From IMG/VR virus record IMGVR_UViG_3300031578_000197, positions 1 to 33,820 of that record: a stretch of 33,820 nucleotides of DNA; one strand, given 5' to 3'. The position numbers and the translations under genes are program-made. This DNA comes from a virus. Within the stretch, counting starts at the first letter, position 1. The number at the start of each line of letters is the position of its first letter. Shown here in pieces: positions 1 through 14,816 of the stretch. The notes beneath the pieces are model-generated. The model searched no databases, had not been told where the DNA came from, and saw only the letters and a program-made list of their open reading frames with translations.

Positions 1-144
1 CGCTGCTTCCGTACACTGTGTGCAACGGCCCCCAGTGGTCTGCGGATGAAATCACTAGCAGAGGGCACGAAACATGGTGCGCTCGTTGACGCGGTCCATC
101 AGGCCCGCGAGGCGGCCGTAATGCTGAAGGCAATGAGCCAATGA
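1..144 (+). CDS. C-terminal end of an unidentified protein (5' end outside window)
   Basis: An open frame runs from the first base to a TGA at 142-144, giving at least 47 residues that end in a helical, alanine-rich stretch. The next start codon (152) follows only 7 bases later, and its Shine-Dalgarno sequence (GAGGG, 142-146) overlaps this stop. That is the tight spacing seen throughout the left arm, so I read this as the end of an upstream operon gene. An internal ATG at 46 could also start a very short protein. Nothing in the visible part identifies a family. Confidence 0.45.
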   Translation, partial: RCFRTLCATAPSGLRMKSLAEGTKHGALVDAVHQAREAAVMLKAMSQ

Positions 145-151
145 GGGTACA

Positions 152-352
152 GTGGAGCAAAAGCTACAGTGGACTGGATTTCCAAAATATCGGGATGCAA
201 AGAAACAATTTGAACGGAGGTACGCAGCGGACTGCTTGAGTCACGCACAAGGCAACGTTTCGGAAGCGGCCCGAATATCGGGCAAGGACCGACGCGACTT
301 CTACGATCTGCTTCGGCGGACGGGGATACAACCAGGAGATTTCAGGAGATGA
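152..352 (+). CDS. Small Fis/NtrC-C-terminal-type helix-turn-helix protein
   Basis: This 66-residue protein starts at GTG 152 behind a good Shine-Dalgarno sequence (GAGGG). Residues 15-60 resemble the DNA-binding tail of Fis and of sigma-54 activators (HTH_8 type): a first helix with a FERRYAADCL pattern, then GNVSEAARISG and DRRDFYDLLRR as the helix-turn-helix. In that family the domain binds DNA as a dimer. Here it stands alone, without the AAA+ or receiver domains, so it is probably a small phage regulator or nucleoid-type DNA-binding protein. It overlaps the next gene by 4 bases (ATGA-type). The A1-like protein at 25424-27031 carries a second HTH of the same general type. Fold assignment is fairly firm; target and role are unknown. 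Confidence 0.8.
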   Translation: MEQKLQWTGFPKYRDAKKQFERRYAADCLSHAQGNVSEAARISGKDRRDFYDLLRRTGIQPGDFRR

Positions 353-588
353 TGCGATTTGTTGGAGTTCTATCTACCGCAGCTTTGATATTCATGTTAG
401 GTTGCGGGACCGGCGCATATTTCGTCGGTAATTACGCGTACATCCAGGGGGCCAAGGCGGCCTTTACTCGATGTCTAAATATGTCGGGGAGCAACGTTGA
501 AGCAGAATCCTACTACCCGGAGATCCCCAGCCGACGAATTCGATGCGGAGCGTCCGTGTTACTTTCTCATGGGCTGGATCAAAAGTGA
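349..588 (+). CDS. Small membrane-anchored or lipoprotein-like protein
   Basis: This 79-residue protein has two consecutive ATGs (349, 352) and overlaps the stop of the HTH gene. AGGAG at 344-348 sits close upstream. Residues 4-30 are strongly hydrophobic and contain MLGCGTG, which could be a weak lipobox (Cys at 19) or simply a membrane span. The rest is short and polar, with no recognised domain. Its last 92 bases overlap the longest form of the following ORF in another frame. That is a larger overlap than elsewhere in the arm, so either this gene's end or the next gene's start may be misplaced. Function unknown. Confidence 0.55.
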   Translation: MMRFVGVLSTAALIFMLGCGTGAYFVGNYAYIQGAKAAFTRCLNMSGSNVEAESYYPEIPSRRIRCGASVLLSHGLDQK

Positions 589-4051: not shown

Positions 4052-4508
4052 ACTCATCGAAGAAGTTCCGCGCGTCGCAGGCCGCCGCTTCAGGAACAAG
4101 ACCCTGGAGACTGAGATACGCTGGGACGGCCTGAGCGCGCTGCCCCCGACCGTGTTCGACACGTTCCGCATCTCCTACCGGACCAACGTCTACCGTGGTC
4201 CAGACGGCGAGCTGTGGAGCTATGACGAACTGCTTCAGCATCACGTCGACAACGATGTCAGGTTTCCCGGGACGTCCCACTTCAGCGAAGCGGTGGACTT
4301 CGAATTCTGGTACGACTGGGGATCCGACGGGCACGTCGAGTGGGAATATCAGGGGACGTGGCGCTTCTTCATGCACCCGGAGACCGAAGAGGAAGAGCGC
4401 GAGTGGCAGTGGGTGAACGAGACCAGCGGCGACGATATTCAGAACCTCCTGGCCGAGTACCTTTACCAGATCAACCGAGACAAATGGGAGAAGAATCGTG
4501 CCGAATAA
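4041..4508 (+). CDS. Hypothetical acidic protein
   Basis: This 155-residue protein is placed at GTG 4041, with AGGGA about 9 bases upstream. It is strongly acidic and rich in tryptophan and tyrosine. A central segment of alternating aromatic and charged residues (FEFWYDWGSDGHVEW) is followed by an EEEEREWQW stretch. This pattern suggests a compact beta-sandwich-like or DNA-mimic-like acidic protein, but no family is recognised. There is no signal peptide or membrane span. It overlaps both neighbours by about 11 bases, placing it in the continuous left-arm operon. Confidence 0.6.
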   Translation: MKLELIEEVPRVAGRRFRNKTLETEIRWDGLSALPPTVFDTFRISYRTNVYRGPDGELWSYDELLQHHVDNDVRFPGTSHFSEAVDFEFWYDWGSDGHVEWEYQGTWRFFMHPETEEEEREWQWVNETSGDDIQNLLAEYLYQINRDKWEKNRAE

Positions 4509-4986
4509 CAAGATCATAGATCCAGGTCGACCCTCACTGGCCTCGCGCCTGAACGCGCAGATCAGGGATGGAACGGCCGGCAACAAAAAGACCAACAAGG
4601 CCGAGGTCCGCCTCTTCAAGCAGCGAATTCGAGACGGCCTCGATGATGACGCGGCCCGCAAAGATACGAAGATCTCTGCACGGATGGCCCAGGACATCAA
4701 AGCCGGTCGCACTTGGCCGATGGTGATCCTTCTCGTCCTGGCTGTCTGCACGATGGGGAACTCCTGCGACAGCGGTGGTGATGGTGGCGGCGATCGGCCC
4801 TACTGCGAGTACTTGGCTCGCCCACTCTGCCGCGACGTCACCACGACCTACCCTTGCCTGTGTCTCTACGGACTTGAGGCAGTGACGTCAGAGGCTGATG
4901 AGCGCGAGTTGTACAACGTCACCCCCACACCCGGGTATATCTTCGAGGGAGGGCCCGAGGGAGGGCAGTCCGGCGATGTGTTCTGA
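4498..4986 (+). CDS. HTH-like N-terminus joined to a membrane/lipoprotein-like C-terminal half
   Basis: This 162-residue frame starts at GTG 4498. Residues 35-72 read as a small helix-turn-helix like those trailing homing endonucleases: a helix with KQRIRDGLDDD, then KISARMAQDIKAGRTW. Directly after comes a hydrophobic run (about 74-90, PMVILLVLAVCTMGNSC) followed by a Gly/Asp linker, which looks like a lipoprotein signal with Cys at 90. A Cys-rich exterior-type tail follows. Either this is a DNA-binding domain tethered to the membrane, or two genes share one frame and an internal ATG (around MAQD or MVILL) starts a secreted lipoprotein. The sequence does not decide between them. It overlaps the sigma-like gene at 4986 by one base. 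Confidence 0.6.
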   Translation: MPNNKIIDPGRPSLASRLNAQIRDGTAGNKKTNKAEVRLFKQRIRDGLDDDAARKDTKISARMAQDIKAGRTWPMVILLVLAVCTMGNSCDSGGDGGGDRPYCEYLARPLCRDVTTTYPCLCLYGLEAVTSEADERELYNVTPTPGYIFEGGPEGGQSGDVF

Positions 4987-6017: not shown

Positions 6018-6288
6018 GTGGTATCAGAACAAGTGGCAGATTCGACGCCTTCAGGACGAGCAGGCGGAGAAACCAACTGACACCCCCGGGTACGCTATCG
6101 CGACTATGGTTCAAGCGACGTCGGTAGAACAGCTGATCGAGAACCAGCGCTTGATGTACGACGTGTGGACGCGTAACGTTAAATTCCACAAGCCACGGAA
6201 TCAGGCACCGGAACCGATCGAAGAGACAGACGCGTATGTCGTGTACGCCCAACAGATGGCCTACCAAGGTAAGGAGATATGGAAATGA
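6007..6288 (+). CDS. Hypothetical small protein coupled to the SPFH gene
   Basis: The start is set at GTG 6007, inside the end of the SPFH gene, with GGGG about 9 bases upstream. An in-frame ATG at 5971 would lengthen the overlap. The 93-residue product is polar, with a basic N-terminus (ASKWYQNKWQIRRLQ), a central helix (SVEQLIENQRLMYDVW) and an acidic C-terminal part. No domain is recognised. Overlap with the SPFH gene upstream and an ATGA overlap with the membrane protein downstream suggest a coupled group of envelope-related genes. Confidence 0.55.
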   Translation: MASKWYQNKWQIRRLQDEQAEKPTDTPGYAIATMVQATSVEQLIENQRLMYDVWTRNVKFHKPRNQAPEPIEETDAYVVYAQQMAYQGKEIWK

Positions 6289-8314: not shown

Positions 8315-8875
8315 ATGTCCAATCGCAGTGTTCAGCTTAGAGGCCCCGACAACAACACACCCGCGGCAGTTGACAGCTTCTCGGGTCATCTAGTCGTGAT
8401 GGACAGCGTCCACGCGCAAACTCATGCCGGCCGCCTATTCGGGACTGGGGTGTTTGATGTCGCGCTGGCGGATGCTGCTAGCCTGGACCTGCTGATCATC
8501 ACCGCGGCGAGTGGTGTAAATCACCTTCGGGCGGACATCGTTGCTGAAGGAAACTCAGTCGGGTTTTTGTATGAAGGAACAACGGTCACCGCAAACGGCA
8601 CCCCTATCGTTCCAGTAAACAGGAACAGGCTCAGCGCCAACGTCGCCTCAGCTCAGTTTTTCACGGCCCCTTCACTCCAGACGCTAGGTACAGAACTCGG
8701 GCGTGGCTATCTCGTTGGGGGAGACAAAAGCAAGACAGTCGGAGACGACTCCTCAACTTTTTCGGAATGGCTGCTTGCCCCTAGCACAACGTATATGATC
8801 CGCCTCACCAATATTTCAGCCGGTCCTGAGATTGCTTCTCTCAACGTTATATTCTACGACACGTCCATCGCCTAG
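8315..8875 (+). CDS. Jelly-roll-like virion (decoration/capsid-accessory) protein candidate
   Basis: This 186-residue protein starts at ATG 8315. It is beta-rich, with small residues and hydroxyl side chains typical of virion surface proteins. The order of segments is HAGRLFGTGVFDVAL, an LLIITAASGVNHLRADI strand pair, GFLYEGTTVTANGTPIVPVNRNR, then near the end a WLLAPSTTYMIRLTNIS and LNVIFYD strand pair. I recall this layout (H-x-G-x-x-F ... V-N-R-N-R ... W-x-L-x-x-x-T-x-Y-x-I-x-x-T-N) from phage proteins usually found near capsid genes. It may be a head decoration or fibre-like protein. It lies on the strand opposite to the tail genes and ends the left arm, sharing its stop region with the convergent gene. 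Confidence 0.65.
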   Translation: MSNRSVQLRGPDNNTPAAVDSFSGHLVVMDSVHAQTHAGRLFGTGVFDVALADAASLDLLIITAASGVNHLRADIVAEGNSVGFLYEGTTVTANGTPIVPVNRNRLSANVASAQFFTAPSLQTLGTELGRGYLVGGDKSKTVGDDSSTFSEWLLAPSTTYMIRLTNISAGPEIASLNVIFYDTSIA

Positions 8876-9246
8876 TTAACCACGCTCTCGTCAGCGCCGG
8901 CGAGATCGAGCGACGCGTGTTGGGCTTCGCAAAGGGCCCGGTACACGGGCTCGAGAAGCGGCGTTCCCGACATCACCAGCGACATCAGCATTGCATGTGA
9001 GTGGCCCAGGGAGACGGCTTCCATGTCCCCGGGTATGTGCAGGTGGAGTGAGCCGTCAGCTTTCGCGACGATCGCGGCGTCGCCTTCCTCTAATGAGATC
9101 TGGCTCTCCTCGCTCCATCTCCGACCCGTCACCTGTGTGTAATCCTGATTCTTCAATTTCTCTATCCACGGCCTGACCATCTCGATGGTAGCCTTTACGC
9201 CCGTGCCGGCCTCCCCTGGGCATGTCCCGGAAGGCGTCACGCGCAA
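8872..9246 (-). CDS. Hypothetical protein, last gene of the right arm; possibly frameshifted at its 5' end
   Basis: The frame spans 124 residues from TTG 9246, but the first ~14 residues look unnatural, and internal GTG 9240 or ATG 9180 are also possible starts. In another frame, ATG 9283 begins MATKDTIKGIRKFARDAF, a very gene-like N-terminus. A +1 shift at CCC-AGG (9220-9215) would join it to this frame just before GEAGTGVKATIEMVRP. The body has a helix (WIEKLKNQ), acidic segments, and a beta-like ADGSLHLHIPGDMEA stretch. No family is recognised. It overlaps the end of the convergent left-arm gene by 4 bases, so there is no room for an intergenic terminator. Confidence 0.55.
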   Translation of the reverse strand: MRVTPSGTCPGEAGTGVKATIEMVRPWIEKLKNQDYTQVTGRRWSEESQISLEEGDAAIVAKADGSLHLHIPGDMEAVSLGHSHAMLMSLVMSGTPLLEPVYRALCEAQHASLDLAGADESVVN

Positions 9247-9261
9247 ACTTTCGAATTCCTT

Positions 9262-9750
9262 TTATCGTATCTTTCGTCGCCATCCTGCCACCGCTAGGGC
9301 CAGTACCCCCATCGCCAGCATAACAAGGAGGCCGGGTTCGGGTACAGACCACATCCTGGCCTGAGGCATTGGAACCTCGTTGCTAGCGGGGGAGACCCTC
9401 GTCTCGAGAAGAATTGCCTGCTCCTCCGGGGTCATGTTGACGCTGGCCCAGATGTCGGCCGATTGTTCCCGACGCAGCGTCACATGCATGTGCGCGTTGG
9501 TCATCGTCTCGCCTTCGCGGAAGGTTCCGAAGCGCCCACGGAGCAGGCCTCCCCCGATGTCCTGGATGTCAGTGACATTCGAGCAGGACAGTTCATCGAC
9601 GTTCACGCGAAAACTTTCGTAGCAAAGCTGGTAGCTGATCAACGGAAATTCCGGATCCACCACGCGTCCGTCGTCACGAAAGTCTACCTGGAACTGTTCA
9701 CTGACGACGTTTGTGTCAGGATACGTCTGCCCTTCGTATTCAAACGGCAT
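9262..9750 (-). CDS. Protein with a C-terminal PEP-CTERM sorting signal
   Basis: The start ATG 9750 has GAGG 8 bases upstream, so I prefer it to GTG 9768, giving 162 residues. Most of the protein is beta-rich, with cysteines at two sites. The last 27 residues form a textbook PEP-CTERM signal: VPEP at 136-139, a hydrophobic span with GLLVMLAMGVLALAVAG, then the basic end WRRKIR. In bacteria this signal is recognised by exosortase (EpsH/XrtA) and is linked to exopolysaccharide or biofilm matrix export. Unusually, no N-terminal signal peptide is visible, although PEP-CTERM proteins normally have one. It may be a host-derived gene or a C-tail-anchored phage protein. It overlaps the ATG-9283 frame downstream. 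Confidence 0.8.
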   Translation of the reverse strand: MPFEYEGQTYPDTNVVSEQFQVDFRDDGRVVDPEFPLISYQLCYESFRVNVDELSCSNVTDIQDIGGGLLRGRFGTFREGETMTNAHMHVTLRREQSADIWASVNMTPEEQAILLETRVSPASNEVPMPQARMWSVPEPGLLVMLAMGVLALAVAGWRRKIR

Positions 9751-9752
9751 AA

Positions 9753-9989
9753 CTATTGCCTCACACACGCACCGGTGAAGTCGAAGTAAGCCGTCGCGCT
9801 ACCGCCCACGGTTACGTCGTTTGTGTCCCGGGTTTGTGACCCACGTTGGTGGTACCCGGCGCGACCCTCTTCGTAGTCACCGTTGCTCTCAGAGCCGAAC
9901 ACGCCTAGCTCGATCCCTGATAGGCAGGGCTTTTGGCTGGTAGCGCAGCCAACAGCAAGCAGCATAGACAAAAATAGACAAACACGCAT
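9753..9989 (-). CDS. Small lipoprotein
   Basis: This 78-residue protein begins MRVCLFLSMLLAVGCATSQ, a short type II signal peptide with a probable lipidated Cys15 (lipobox AVGC). The mature part is short, polar and glycine-rich, with cysteines at 22 and near the C-terminus, and has no recognised domain. Its ATG overlaps the primase-helicase stop (TGATG). It is therefore cotranscribed with replication genes although it is envelope-directed, together with the PEP-CTERM gene downstream, which starts 2 bases after this stop. A surface role such as superinfection exclusion would fit a phage lipoprotein but is not shown. Confidence 0.75.
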   Translation of the reverse strand: MRVCLFLSMLLAVGCATSQKPCLSGIELGVFGSESNGDYEEGRAGYHQRGSQTRDTNDVTVGGSATAYFDFTGACVRQ

Positions 9990-12337
9990 CAGAAAATCTC
10001 CTCGTTTGGCATGGGCATTTCGATCTCTACCTCATCCGGGGCATCGATCCAATCACCCTGTTTATATACTTTCATCCATTGCTCGCGGCAAACGTCCAGG
10101 TTGGAGAACTGGTAGACCCGACGACGCCCCTGGGAGACCGACGACAGCCCGAGTTTCGGGGCGGCGACCTTCGAAAGAAAGCGTCCGAGATGAACGTTGT
10201 TTCTTGGAGAGCGGTGACTATTTCGCTTCGTGTACTCCAGGTAATCGTCAAAGAGAGTCTGGGTCAGCATGAGTTGTGGCCACGGAACGCTACTCGGATC
10301 TTCGTTGAGCATCTGACCGCTGCACAGTTTCGTGTACCACCACTCCTCTTCGAGGTTGTAGCTCTGGAGCTGCTGCTCTTGTAGCGCCTTGGTGGTCGGC
10401 ACAGTTCGCACGTTGAAGCCTGTCAGATCGTGGTTTAACAGGGAATACAGAAACCCCTCCCGTCCACCGTTGTCCATCTGCTTCTGGATCGCACCGAAAT
10501 ACGCGATGTCCTGCTTGTGATCCTCGCTGACGTCAAGCACCAGGAAGCGACGCTCGCTCCGGCTGTGGGCGGGAACGACCCAGTCATGGTTCGACGCCAT
10601 CATCAGGTGGATGCAGTTAGTCGCGGCTTCGATGTCGATACCTTTCGACTCAACTGCCATAACGTCCTCAGTCACGATCATCTTCAGCGCGCCTTCGTGC
10701 TTCTTGTCGCCAGCGTAGAAAGCCTCGTCCGCGAACAGGAAGACGCAGTCACGGAGATGGGCGTTGAAGTTCCCGACCAACTGGCTGGAGTGGCCGACCT
10801 GTAGATAGTGTCTGCCCAAAAGGGCGCCTAGCTGCTTCGCGACGAATGACTTTCCCGTGCCCTGTTCACCACGCAGAACAACCGCCGTCTGTCCGGGTTC
10901 ACCGGGTCGCTGGATCATGCGAGCCATCCACCCCAGTAGGTAGCTGAAGAGCCTGTCATTGCCCCGGCAGACGTTCTCTCGGATGTGCTCCTGGAGCTTG
11001 TCCCACTTCCCTGGGCGGGCTTCACATGCGAATCCTCGCCAGAGATTATACGCGTCCGGAACTTCTTTGTTTGGCACAAAAACAACCCTCTTAAATTGAC
11101 GACGTTCAACGTTCTTCAACCACCAGTCACCGAGTGGCATGTACTTTGGATTTCCATCCTTATCGGCTCCGACTTCAACGGATCGATTCATGTGGGCGTT
11201 CCTGAAATCTCCGAAGCTGAGGTTCGTGAGACGCGAGCGCTGCAAGATCGGATCCGTGATCTCCTCTACCACGCGGCACTTGCCGCCGTAATTTTCGATC
11301 ACCGCATAGCGGTCATTCATTTCGGCCAGCTTAGGGTCAATGGCGAATTCCTTCGCCTTCCCGATTTGTCGCTTGGCATAACTCTCGACGTTGACGCCCT
11401 TGTCGAGCACAGAATCGCTGATGCCGAAGTCGGGGTCCGTGATCAGCGAATAGATGACCTCGTCGGGCACGCTGCAGCGCACGAGATTACAGACACAGTC
11501 GAACAGCCAGCTCGATCGTGAATCATCATCCTTCGGCGGCTCGTCGGGGTGACGGCCCTGGACGACGATGACCTTGACCCGATCAGGTACGTTCCATTCG
11601 TCCAGTTCCTCCATCGTGCCGATGCGGGGAACGTTTCCACTGACATCGACGGTCTGCGTGGAGGTGCCAAACATCTCACCGCTTTGCGTCGGAGCGGCTG
11701 GCGTGAAGTCAGAGAGCGGGTAGACGCGGGAGTGATCGAAAACTTTTAGGGTGGCCGTCTCTTCCGAGCGCCCCTTCTTTCGCTTCTTCACGTCTGGAAT
11801 GTTGACTGTCCCAGGCAGACGCATGATGCGATCGACGTTATGGCAATCGTCAGCACCGAACAGCAGTTCGAGCTGCAGGTTCCAACGCTTGGCCGTCTCC
11901 GCGAGCGCGATGTCGCCATTGATCTCGTATTCTTCGTCAAGTCGCCAGAACCCTTGGTAGCCGCCGCCGGAGAAGATGATCACTGTGGGTTTCGGGACAC
12001 CGGCTGGCGGACTCGTCAGTTGGGCATACGCTCGCTCGCGTTCGTCGTCTAGGTTCTTTCCTTCACGGGGATCAACATCGACGTGTAACCACTTCATACC
12101 GCGCATCTCGGTGCGGCCCGCCTTCTTTGTCATTGGGCCGATGGTCGGATTGACGTGGAAGTAGATGTTACGAGTGCCGTTGTATAGGTCGAGCCATTCC
12201 GCGCATTCGACGTCGGTTTCTGAATCAAATGTGGCCGTTGTGATCGATTTTCGATCAACAGCAATAGCGGTCAGAACCCAGAGCCCTTGTGGCTCCCACT
12301 GTTTCAGGAATGCAATCGACGCGGGTGTGTCTGTCAT
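9989..12337 (-). CDS. Prim-pol / superfamily-3-like primase-helicase (DUF5906 type)
   Basis: This 782-residue replicative protein has two parts. The N-terminal archaeo-eukaryotic-type primase-polymerase domain (about 1-190) shows WLHVDVDP, with metal-binding Asp87 and Asp89, a GGGYQGFW strand (125-131), and the NVDRIMRLPGTVN closing motif (167-179). The C-terminal helicase (about 450-690) has Walker A GEQGTGKS (490-497), Walker B VFLFADEAF with Asp537/Glu538, a following MASNHDW sensor, and RSERRFLVLDVS with the arginine finger region, as in D5/DUF5906 phage helicases. It would open the duplex and make primers for the PolA encoded just upstream. It starts by overlapping the VRR-NUC stop (4 bases). 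Length is normal for bifunctional phage enzymes. Confidence 0.93.
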   Translation of the reverse strand: MTDTPASIAFLKQWEPQGLWVLTAIAVDRKSITTATFDSETDVECAEWLDLYNGTRNIYFHVNPTIGPMTKKAGRTEMRGMKWLHVDVDPREGKNLDDERERAYAQLTSPPAGVPKPTVIIFSGGGYQGFWRLDEEYEINGDIALAETAKRWNLQLELLFGADDCHNVDRIMRLPGTVNIPDVKKRKKGRSEETATLKVFDHSRVYPLSDFTPAAPTQSGEMFGTSTQTVDVSGNVPRIGTMEELDEWNVPDRVKVIVVQGRHPDEPPKDDDSRSSWLFDCVCNLVRCSVPDEVIYSLITDPDFGISDSVLDKGVNVESYAKRQIGKAKEFAIDPKLAEMNDRYAVIENYGGKCRVVEEITDPILQRSRLTNLSFGDFRNAHMNRSVEVGADKDGNPKYMPLGDWWLKNVERRQFKRVVFVPNKEVPDAYNLWRGFACEARPGKWDKLQEHIRENVCRGNDRLFSYLLGWMARMIQRPGEPGQTAVVLRGEQGTGKSFVAKQLGALLGRHYLQVGHSSQLVGNFNAHLRDCVFLFADEAFYAGDKKHEGALKMIVTEDVMAVESKGIDIEAATNCIHLMMASNHDWVVPAHSRSERRFLVLDVSEDHKQDIAYFGAIQKQMDNGGREGFLYSLLNHDLTGFNVRTVPTTKALQEQQLQSYNLEEEWWYTKLCSGQMLNEDPSSVPWPQLMLTQTLFDDYLEYTKRNSHRSPRNNVHLGRFLSKVAAPKLGLSSVSQGRRRVYQFSNLDVCREQWMKVYKQGDWIDAPDEVEIEMPMPNEEIF

Positions 12338-12750
12338 CTTCTCAACGTTTCGTCCAGATCGGCGGTGGCAACGCGCCCGTATGAATGCAGTATTGCGCAG
12401 TCGACGAGTCTATCACGCGGAACGCGGCCGACAAGCTCCCATGCGGTCAGTCCATCGAACAACAGGTTCTCGACCGTGCCGCGGGAACCCACACGTAGCA
12501 GCAGCCATGCACCCCCGCCTGCATTCCACCGACGGCGGAGGAAATTGCGCTGCTGTTGCGTGAAGTGATCGATCACGACTGTCGTGTCAGCCTGCTTCGG
12601 CCAGCGAGGGAGATATTTCAGCTCGAGCCAGCCTCGTAGGCATTCCACATCGGGACAGCCTGGGTTGGCCGGGTTCTCGACAGCCTGCGGATCGGAGCGC
12701 ATCCGCTTCAGCGCTTTGATGACTTGAGATCGGTAGGTGTATTCACTCAC
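12334..12750 (-). CDS. VRR-NUC-type nuclease (PD-(D/E)xK fold)
   Basis: This 138-residue protein shows the compact VRR-NUC signature. NPGCPDVECLRGWLELKYLP (28-47) supplies the Gly-x-Pro-Asp and Glu-x-Lys catalytic residues (Asp34, Glu43, Lys45), followed by a helix (FTQQQRNFLRRRW) and a strand with AWLLLRVG. In phages such enzymes act as structure-specific, Holliday-junction-type nucleases or process replication intermediates. It lies between PolA and primase-helicase with 4-base overlaps on both sides, so it belongs to the replication operon core. The exact DNA structure it cuts cannot be read from sequence. Confidence 0.85.
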   Translation of the reverse strand: MSEYTYRSQVIKALKRMRSDPQAVENPANPGCPDVECLRGWLELKYLPRWPKQADTTVVIDHFTQQQRNFLRRRWNAGGGAWLLLRVGSRGTVENLLFDGLTAWELVGRVPRDRLVDCAILHSYGRVATADLDETLRR

Positions 12751-14816
12751 ATCGATTCTCCCCAGCTTGGTCCCATCTCAACGTCCACCTTCGAAGGAAC
12801 GGTGAGCTGTGGAATGCAGTGTTCCATGATCTCGGCAGCATCCTGGGCATCCCCCGCACCATGAAAACTACCCGTCAGTTCATCGTGGACCTGGAGCTGC
12901 ATAAAGTGACCCGCATTATGAACATCGACGAGCGCTTTCTTCGTCTGATCCGCCGCCGACCCCTGCACGATGCGATTCAGCGCTTTCTGTGTCCAGTCGT
13001 ACTTGCCACTCGCGCCAACAGGGAAATGGCAGTGTCGGCCCAGGATGGTCTTGACGTAGCCGCGCTCTTCGGCTTTCGTCTGCGCGAGCTTCGCCAGCTC
13101 ACGGATGAAGGGAAGCTTCTCATCGAACGTCGCGAGCAGCGCACGGCCTTCTTCACCCGCGCCTTCCATCATGCGACCGCCGGTCTCGTTCGCGTACGCT
13201 GCCGCATCGGTGCGGTTCATGTAATCGAAGTACCTCGTATCGTCCCACTTCCGCCCGTACACCACCCACGCAGTAGACAGACCTAGCTTGCGGCACAGCT
13301 TCGCTCCGCCCAGGCCGTAGATCTTGCCAAGAAAGATTTCCTTTGCGGCCTTGCGCTTGATGCCAGCCATCTTCGCGACCATGTCATGGTTGTCGGTGGC
13401 CCGGTTCGTTCGATACTGATGGCAGGCAGCGACGGCTGCTAGGTGAGCTTCCCTGGAGATGCCCGTGCCCTTGTGGGGTCTTCCGATCGGGGTGTTCTCC
13501 GCGTAGTGCATCATCGTGCGCGGTTCCTGCTGCGAATAGTCGAGCGAGCCCCACGTCATCCCGGGCTCAGGTATGTAGATCGCGCGCCACATCTTCGCGA
13601 ACTCATCGCGGGACGGTTGCTGTTGTAGGTTGGGCTTCTCGCTGGACAAGCGACCATACCGAGCGCCGGACCCATCATCCGCTGCCGCCTCACTCTCCGA
13701 GTCGTTCTTGCGCAGCTGGTTGAACGTCGAGTGGATGCGGCCGTTCACCATGTGCTCGCGAACCGAAGCGGCGAAAGTGGTCCGCAGCTTGTTCGTCTTG
13801 CGCGCCCACAGAATGCGTTCAGCAACCGGGTGGTCGATCGCCGCCAGGACTTCCTTGTCGATGTTCGGTTGGCCCTTCGCGGTCTTCCCTGGCGTGATCC
13901 CGATCGCTTGTAGCGCAGGAGCTACAGCGCTCGCAGCCATGATCCCTTTGCCAAGCCCGATGCGGACGCCGGTCAGCCGGTGAATCTCATCCAGGGCAGC
14001 AGCTTCTTCCCCACGGGACCATGCCTCAACCTGAGCCAGCCGATCCTGATCGATTAGGACACCACGCCGGCGCAGTAGCGTCAGGACGGGCTGTACGGAG
14101 CACTCGAGGTTGAAGATGTCCCAGAGACCCGCCTCTTCGATTCGCTTCTCCTGGAGCCGTAGGAGCGCCAGAGGCTCGTCCACATCGCCAAGGCCATACG
14201 GGCCCACGAATCTCGCTGGAAGCTTCCAGAGGCCCGCCTTCGGATCGACACCAAAGTGGTCGGCCGCGTCCTTGAGCAGGCTCTCGTTCTTCCCTTCGCG
14301 ACCGTAGCGGGCGGAGATGGCTTCGAGCCCATAGTTGAACTGCAGCTCGTCCAGCAGGGGCTCTGCCACCCCGATATCTCTCCAGGTGCAAGCGCCCCCG
14401 ATGAAATCCGCGCCCTCCTGGGCCATCCAGTCGCCGTCATAGCCCAGGTTGCAGCCGACGAGCTGCCCCTTGAACGAGCGCGCCTGGGCTGCCAGATACG
14501 CCAGCGCCGCGTCAGGATTCTCGACGTTGTCGCCGCCCTGATGGCGCAGCGGAACGTAGAACCCAGGCCCGCCTTCGATGCGGAAGCTGTAGCCAACGAG
14601 CATCGTGTCCGCGCGGCGCGCGCCGCAGCCCATCTTCTTGAGGTCAGGGTCTTTCGTCTCGACGTCGATCGCGACGCGAGCGGTGGAACTGACTGGCCAA
14701 TTGGGCAGCTCGCCGAGGCGAGGCGGACGCCAATCAGACTCCGGCGTGAACATCGGGATCTGAGTTTCGGCACCCTTGGTCTGGTCGGAGTGCTTACGAC
14801 CCTTGGGCTTCGCCAC
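12747..14816 (-). CDS. polA: Family A DNA polymerase with 3'-5' exonuclease, Leu at the Phe762 position
   Basis: This 689-residue polymerase has no 5'-nuclease domain. Exonuclease motifs are intact: DVET (Asp51, Glu53), NLGYD (Asn123, Asp127) and YGLGD (Tyr207, Asp211). Polymerase motif A is LDYSQQEPR with catalytic Asp426, slightly divergent from DYSQIELR. Motif B is RKAAKEIFLGKIYG (488-501) and motif C is QVHDE (His644-Asp645-Glu646). Aligned with E. coli Pol I, Leu496 takes the place of Phe762, which affects nucleotide discrimination and speed. Leu types in virioplankton have been linked with slower or temperate replication styles. A thumb region and QxxAAD-type motif are also present. The start ATG overlaps DUF3310 by 23 bases. 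Confidence 0.95.
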   Translation of the reverse strand: MAKPKGRKHSDQTKGAETQIPMFTPESDWRPPRLGELPNWPVSSTARVAIDVETKDPDLKKMGCGARRADTMLVGYSFRIEGGPGFYVPLRHQGGDNVENPDAALAYLAAQARSFKGQLVGCNLGYDGDWMAQEGADFIGGACTWRDIGVAEPLLDELQFNYGLEAISARYGREGKNESLLKDAADHFGVDPKAGLWKLPARFVGPYGLGDVDEPLALLRLQEKRIEEAGLWDIFNLECSVQPVLTLLRRRGVLIDQDRLAQVEAWSRGEEAAALDEIHRLTGVRIGLGKGIMAASAVAPALQAIGITPGKTAKGQPNIDKEVLAAIDHPVAERILWARKTNKLRTTFAASVREHMVNGRIHSTFNQLRKNDSESEAAADDGSGARYGRLSSEKPNLQQQPSRDEFAKMWRAIYIPEPGMTWGSLDYSQQEPRTMMHYAENTPIGRPHKGTGISREAHLAAVAACHQYRTNRATDNHDMVAKMAGIKRKAAKEIFLGKIYGLGGAKLCRKLGLSTAWVVYGRKWDDTRYFDYMNRTDAAAYANETGGRMMEGAGEEGRALLATFDEKLPFIRELAKLAQTKAEERGYVKTILGRHCHFPVGASGKYDWTQKALNRIVQGSAADQTKKALVDVHNAGHFMQLQVHDELTGSFHGAGDAQDAAEIMEHCIPQLTVPSKVDVEMGPSWGESM

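Follow-up and report, generated by a model that had tools for sequence, protein, structure and literature searches.

The window is the whole 33,820-nt stretch of virus record IMGVR_UViG_3300031578_000197, which carries phage replication genes encoding a primase, a DNA polymerase and a class II ribonucleotide reductase. An open reading frame on its minus strand (9262-9750; ATG at 9750, TAA at 9264-9262) encodes a protein of 162 amino acids with the C-terminal sequence ...SVPEPGLLVMLAMGVLALAVAGWRRKIR. This gene is placed among the replication genes, not the structural genes, and adjoins a lipoprotein-like gene; its product is probably non-structural. The features of the locus are the following:

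8872..9156, minus strand: second gene downstream, 94 aa when read from a TTG (listed ORF 8872-9246), conserved in the same relatives
9056..9283, minus strand: gene directly downstream, encoding a basic protein of 75 aa; it starts (ATG) within the final codons of the PEP-CTERM gene, with which it shares 22 nt
9262..9750, minus strand: phage PEP-CTERM protein without signal peptide, 162 aa; homologues in L002, L003, L004 and L006
9265..9282, minus strand: basic C-terminus WRRKIR, overlapping the start of the next gene
9283..9333, minus strand: 17-residue hydrophobic span, residues 140-156; the sole transmembrane-grade segment, a helix in the predicted model
9334..9345, minus strand: VPEP box, residues 136-139; invariant in 5/5 phages, all four codons varying synonymously
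9346..9750, minus strand: body, residues 1-135; net charge -12, two cysteines, predicted to be beta-rich (low confidence), with a conserved N-terminus MPF-EY-GQTWPD and no hydrophobic stretch
9753..9989, minus strand: small upstream gene, 78 aa; its N-terminus has a hydrophobic stretch and then a Cys, by eye resembling a lipoprotein; kept in L003, L004 and L006, absent from L002
9989..12337, minus strand: primase/helicase-like gene (DUF5906, phrog_1829), the landmark for finding relatives

Profile searches revealed a PEP box, a hydrophobic helix and a basic cluster, all at the extreme C-terminus of the protein, where both domain models were matched over their full 24 positions. Pfam PF07589 (cut-off 20.7 bits) matched residues 135-160 with 23.8 bits and an E value of 4.4e-5 (26.4 bits in the whole-record search), and NCBIfam TIGR02595 (cut-off 16 bits) matched residues 136-162 with 16.6 bits, a narrow pass (19 bits when the entire record was searched). 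Across all six frames of the 33.8-kb record, this open reading frame was the single PEP-CTERM match of both models. The model search detected ordinary signal-peptide-bearing PEP-CTERM proteins used as positive control, PF07589 had 0 matches at E<=0.01 in 31 other, more distant viral records, and no PEP-CTERM match above cut-off (TIGR02595, PF07589) was obtained in 14 control genomes, indicating that the match is more than chance. Judged by its models, the protein is a member of the PEP-CTERM domain family, in agreement with an earlier note on this DNA, which had recognized this signal in the VPEP, the hydrophobic span and the WRRKIR end and had proposed TIGR02595 as a check on it.

Relatives were found by scanning viral contigs with the window primase, and their primases were 78-79% identical to it. 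One contig (L007) ends before the PEP-CTERM region, and the comparison comprised the four relatives that extend past the primase. In all four, a homologue sits next after the primase, or next but one past the small lipoprotein-like gene; each homologue ends in PEP-CTERM and passes both TIGR02595 and PF07589, so that the motif was retained in related phages as the earlier note had proposed to verify. Identity to the window was 25-45% for the PEP-CTERM homologues, compared to 78-79% for the primase and 59-67% for the gene just downstream. The VPEP box was invariant in the five phages, with a synonymous change at each of its four codons, and the same pattern was seen at several helix positions occupied by Leu or Gly. 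An invariant box with synonymous codon changes in otherwise diverged proteins implies that the tail is selected as protein, and this comparison of five sequences, belonging to one tight phage group, thus shows selection on the tail at the amino-acid level.

The following gene (ATG at 9283) shares its first 22 nt with the end of the PEP-CTERM gene. This overlap partly forces the conservation of WRR, but neither VPEP nor the helix falls within it. The overlap as sole cause of tail conservation was therefore ruled out for VPEP and the helix and is possible for WRR. Together with the TIGR02595 margin of 0.6 bits in the window protein, it would be compatible with a trivial resemblance, the product being an ordinary phage membrane protein or the tail being kept merely through the shared nucleotides, but the agreement of 5/5 homologues with both models, the location of the box and helix, and the 0 matches in 31 other viral records make this explanation quite improbable, as it is disfavoured by the conservation pattern. 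A search with the alignment detected no homologue in 24 of these 31 viral records or in six isolate phages (Simon, AIIMS-Plu-RaNi, PaMx11, RHph_I65, Pam3 and MW2), the latter also giving no PF07589 match above cut-off, while two members of the alignment included as controls were recovered with E below 1e-72. The bacterial genome contigs were found to encode no relative at the sensitivity of the alignment scan. The tail peptide gave no tblastn match in collections of phages and plasmids, a result that does not speak for absence, as the query was probably masked by the low-complexity filter. Within the records searched, the trait is limited to one tight phage group.

Further analyses of the N-terminus revealed none of the signal peptide that characterizes a canonical exosortase substrate. 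In all five proteins the best 19-residue hydropathy was 1.9-2.2 in the tail versus <=0.72 before the PEP box, and the in-frame codons upstream of the start (16 in the window, 1 in L003, 14 in L004, 22 in L006 and 5 in L002) were never hydrophobic. In addition, all five starts are preceded by a purine-rich stretch and followed directly by conserved residues. The signal peptide that the earlier note had reported as missing was thus not gained by moving the start, and its suggestion of a wrongly placed N-terminus had to be abandoned, given at most 22 upstream in-frame codons in any of the five phages. The upstream gene of the window stops 2 nt short of the PEP-CTERM ATG, and here as well as in L004 and L006 the open frames of these neighbours share some codons. 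Such an arrangement would suit a misplaced start or a frameshift fusion, in which the true protein would take its signal sequence from the lipoprotein-like gene. The short, non-hydrophobic upstream room, the conserved residues after the start and the purine-rich stretches argue against it, and a fusion is excluded because L002 is without the upstream gene; this explanation was considered refuted for the five sequences, its residual probability being negligible. About 97% of PEP-CTERM proteins are estimated to have a signal peptide after start-site correction (Haft et al. 2006, PMC1569441), and the absence here is thus both real and unusual. As the absence was tested and is real, the protein was not classed as a canonical exosortase substrate.

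A strict pattern scan of viral contigs (VPEP, 17 or 18 residues, WRR/K) recovered PEP-CTERM proteins in L064, L068, L069 and L072, with N-terminal signal peptides by eye. These proteins and a second one encoded by L004 have the C-terminal tag in common with the window protein but, unlike it, carry their own N-terminal signals, and some of the contigs may be host DNA. The second protein of L004 (IMGVR_UViG_3300017971_000037; 9572-10303, minus strand) has 243 aa, a signal peptide by eye and a TIGR02595 score of 18.6 bits; its gene lies close to the first one in convergent orientation and directly follows a predicted tRNA-Gln and an RNA-ligase-like gene, and no relative of it was detected in the viral or genome contigs searched. 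L063, an apparently unrelated viral contig, encodes at 131-457 (plus strand) a protein of 108 aa whose N-terminus is hydrophobic and which ends in VPEP...WRRKK (PF07589 14.5 bits, below the cut-off of 20.7), possibly an independent phage case.

The bodies of the five proteins comprise about 132-153 residues and are acidic, with 10-15 basic residues, and the number of cysteines outside the helix is even in all of them (2, 2, 4, 2 and 2), weakly suggesting an oxidising compartment. The basic end of the tail has 3-4 K/R, and its N-flank has a net charge of 0 to -4. Two predicted structures were of low confidence (pLDDT 63 and 58); the C-terminal helix comprised residues 139-161 in the low-confidence model, and a fold search with these models yielded no match at E<=1e-3. 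No match was found in PHROGs or PADLOC. A fibronectin-III-like body, considered by eye from WSEWSN in L002 and L006, was without Pfam support and was rejected.

Comparison with known systems showed that the window protein has the same PEP box, hydrophobic helix and basic C-terminal cluster as exosortase (EpsH/Xrt) substrates (TIGR02595/PF07589; PMC1569441), and likewise a fast-changing body without known relatives, but it is phage-encoded and has no N-terminal signal peptide, and the host exosortase is putative. With bacterial tail-anchored proteins (PMC5525287, PMC6794478) it shares the lone C-terminal helix, the lack of an N-terminal signal and the short basic tail, a likeness of tail features; the PEP box, however, is not described for those proteins.

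A single C-terminal hydrophobic segment with no other targeting signal was found in all five proteins, and the tail anchor envisaged by the earlier note is therefore well supported as predicted anatomy. With no membrane segment other than the C-terminal helix, targeting through the C-tail would be the simplest route; model and natural tail-anchored proteins insert in E. coli without a signal peptide or SecYEG (PMC6794478). We favour, with a probability of about 0.5, an envelope protein that lacks a signal peptide, is anchored by its C-tail and probably has its PEP box recognized by the exosortase system of the host. The acidic, probably beta-rich body of about 132-153 residues would be held in the host membrane solely by the PEP-CTERM tail, and recognition of VPEP by the host exosortase system would be the obvious reason for the conserved box. 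The charge bias, with a basic C-terminus and an N-flank that is neutral to acidic, would place the body outside and the RRK end inside, exposing VPEP to exosortase. Such an orientation fits the charge bias, the acidic bodies and the even cysteine counts, and leaves the membrane crossing of the body unexplained. Against this reading, the exosortase model puts the PEP box on the periplasmic side (PMC1569441), which an ordinary tail anchor, with a cytoplasmic body, would not allow.

The main rival is such an ordinary anchor: a C-terminus of host PEP-CTERM descent would hold a phage protein at the inner membrane with its body in the cytoplasm and its C-terminus outside, and exosortase would never read the PEP box. 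The absent signal peptide is consistent with this, as are the Sec-independent insertion of such proteins (PMC6794478) and the tails of ElaB/YqjD, where a Gly-rich helix and then a positive patch ending in di-arginine (PMC5525287) resemble the window tail minus the PEP. An anchor, however, does not need VPEP, yet all five proteins, diverged as they are, keep the box while its codons change synonymously, and the charge bias, although weak evidence, indicates the opposite topology; we regard this alternative as possible but somewhat unlikely.

Counted within the favoured reading, that of an envelope protein anchored by its C-tail and read by exosortase, is a full exosortase substrate, in which the body would cross as a long N-tail or by another signal, exosortase would cut the tail and the body would reach the surface. 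This version agrees with the charge bias, the acidic body and the even numbers of cysteines, and E. coli ProW, whose long N-tail is translocated without a signal peptide, is a precedent. On the other hand, a folded body of 132-153 residues with 10-15 basic residues is a demanding N-tail, and hydrophobic signals are present at the N-termini of the remaining PEP-CTERM proteins from viral contigs, so this version seems doubtful.

Speculatively, the tail-anchored product might alter or block the host surface during infection, as in superinfection exclusion, or compete with host substrates for exosortase. The low conservation of the body and the lipoprotein-like neighbour suggest a host-surface role, e.g., superinfection exclusion. 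Envelope proteins of phages that act in superinfection exclusion include Llp of T5. Such proteins, among them P22 SieA (PMC10883804), are phage products sent to the host envelope, and the putative envelope protein of the window resembles them in this and in adjoining a lipoprotein-like gene; no sequence relation was found, and the likeness offers a lead only. A tentative extension, which we hold to be rather unlikely, is that these phages engage the host exosortase directly, with the protein acting as a decoy that blocks host PEP-CTERM sorting, or as a substrate that takes an unrecognised export route and is displayed against other phages. If true, phages would have taken over an enzyme of bacterial protein sorting. 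The open-licence papers searched, a limited set, contained no account of a phage-encoded PEP-CTERM protein. Exosortase/PEP-CTERM sorting is poorly understood, and a conserved PEP box without a signal peptide would provide a natural test of what exosortase needs and of its exploitation or blocking by phages.

Regarding the host, the earlier note had taken the tail as a hint of a bacterium with exosortase, whose exopolysaccharide or biofilm export might be a target of adsorption or evasion. No exosortase (PF09721) was detected in the phage contigs G000, G003, G005 and G007, as would be expected if the enzyme is that of the host. The second, signal-peptide-bearing PEP-CTERM protein of L004 supports a host with a PEP-CTERM system, so the hint stands strengthened as a reasonable inference, the four phage contigs themselves adding no enzyme to it. 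The terminase and helicase relatives belong to phages of unrelated hosts (Shewanella, Rhizobium, Pseudomonas and Pseudanabaena), and for this uncultivated phage group the tail offers a host clue, pointing to an exosortase-positive host with an outer membrane.

Some observations concern the surrounding genes. The 75-aa protein at 9056-9283 (minus strand) is 59-67% conserved, and its piece DTIKAIKK..RELFREMPKGG recurs in L092, which has no PEP-CTERM match. The window has no predicted tRNA; in L054, the other long relative, a predicted tRNA-Lys (6157-6232, minus strand) lies beside an apparent 3' part of another tRNA, near the same RNA-ligase-like gene as in L004. The DNA polymerase at 12747-14816 (minus strand) has DpoZ (aminoadenine-incorporating) as its best NCBIfam match, at 252 of the 500 bits of the cut-off, and since this score is about half of the cut-off it gives no evidence of modified bases. 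At 4498-4986 (plus strand), a protein of 162 aa, 55-60% conserved in two long relatives, has about 70 polar residues followed by an internal hydrophobic stretch and a Cys-rich region; its frame may contain a second start, or the protein may be a lipoprotein whose N-terminus is unusual.
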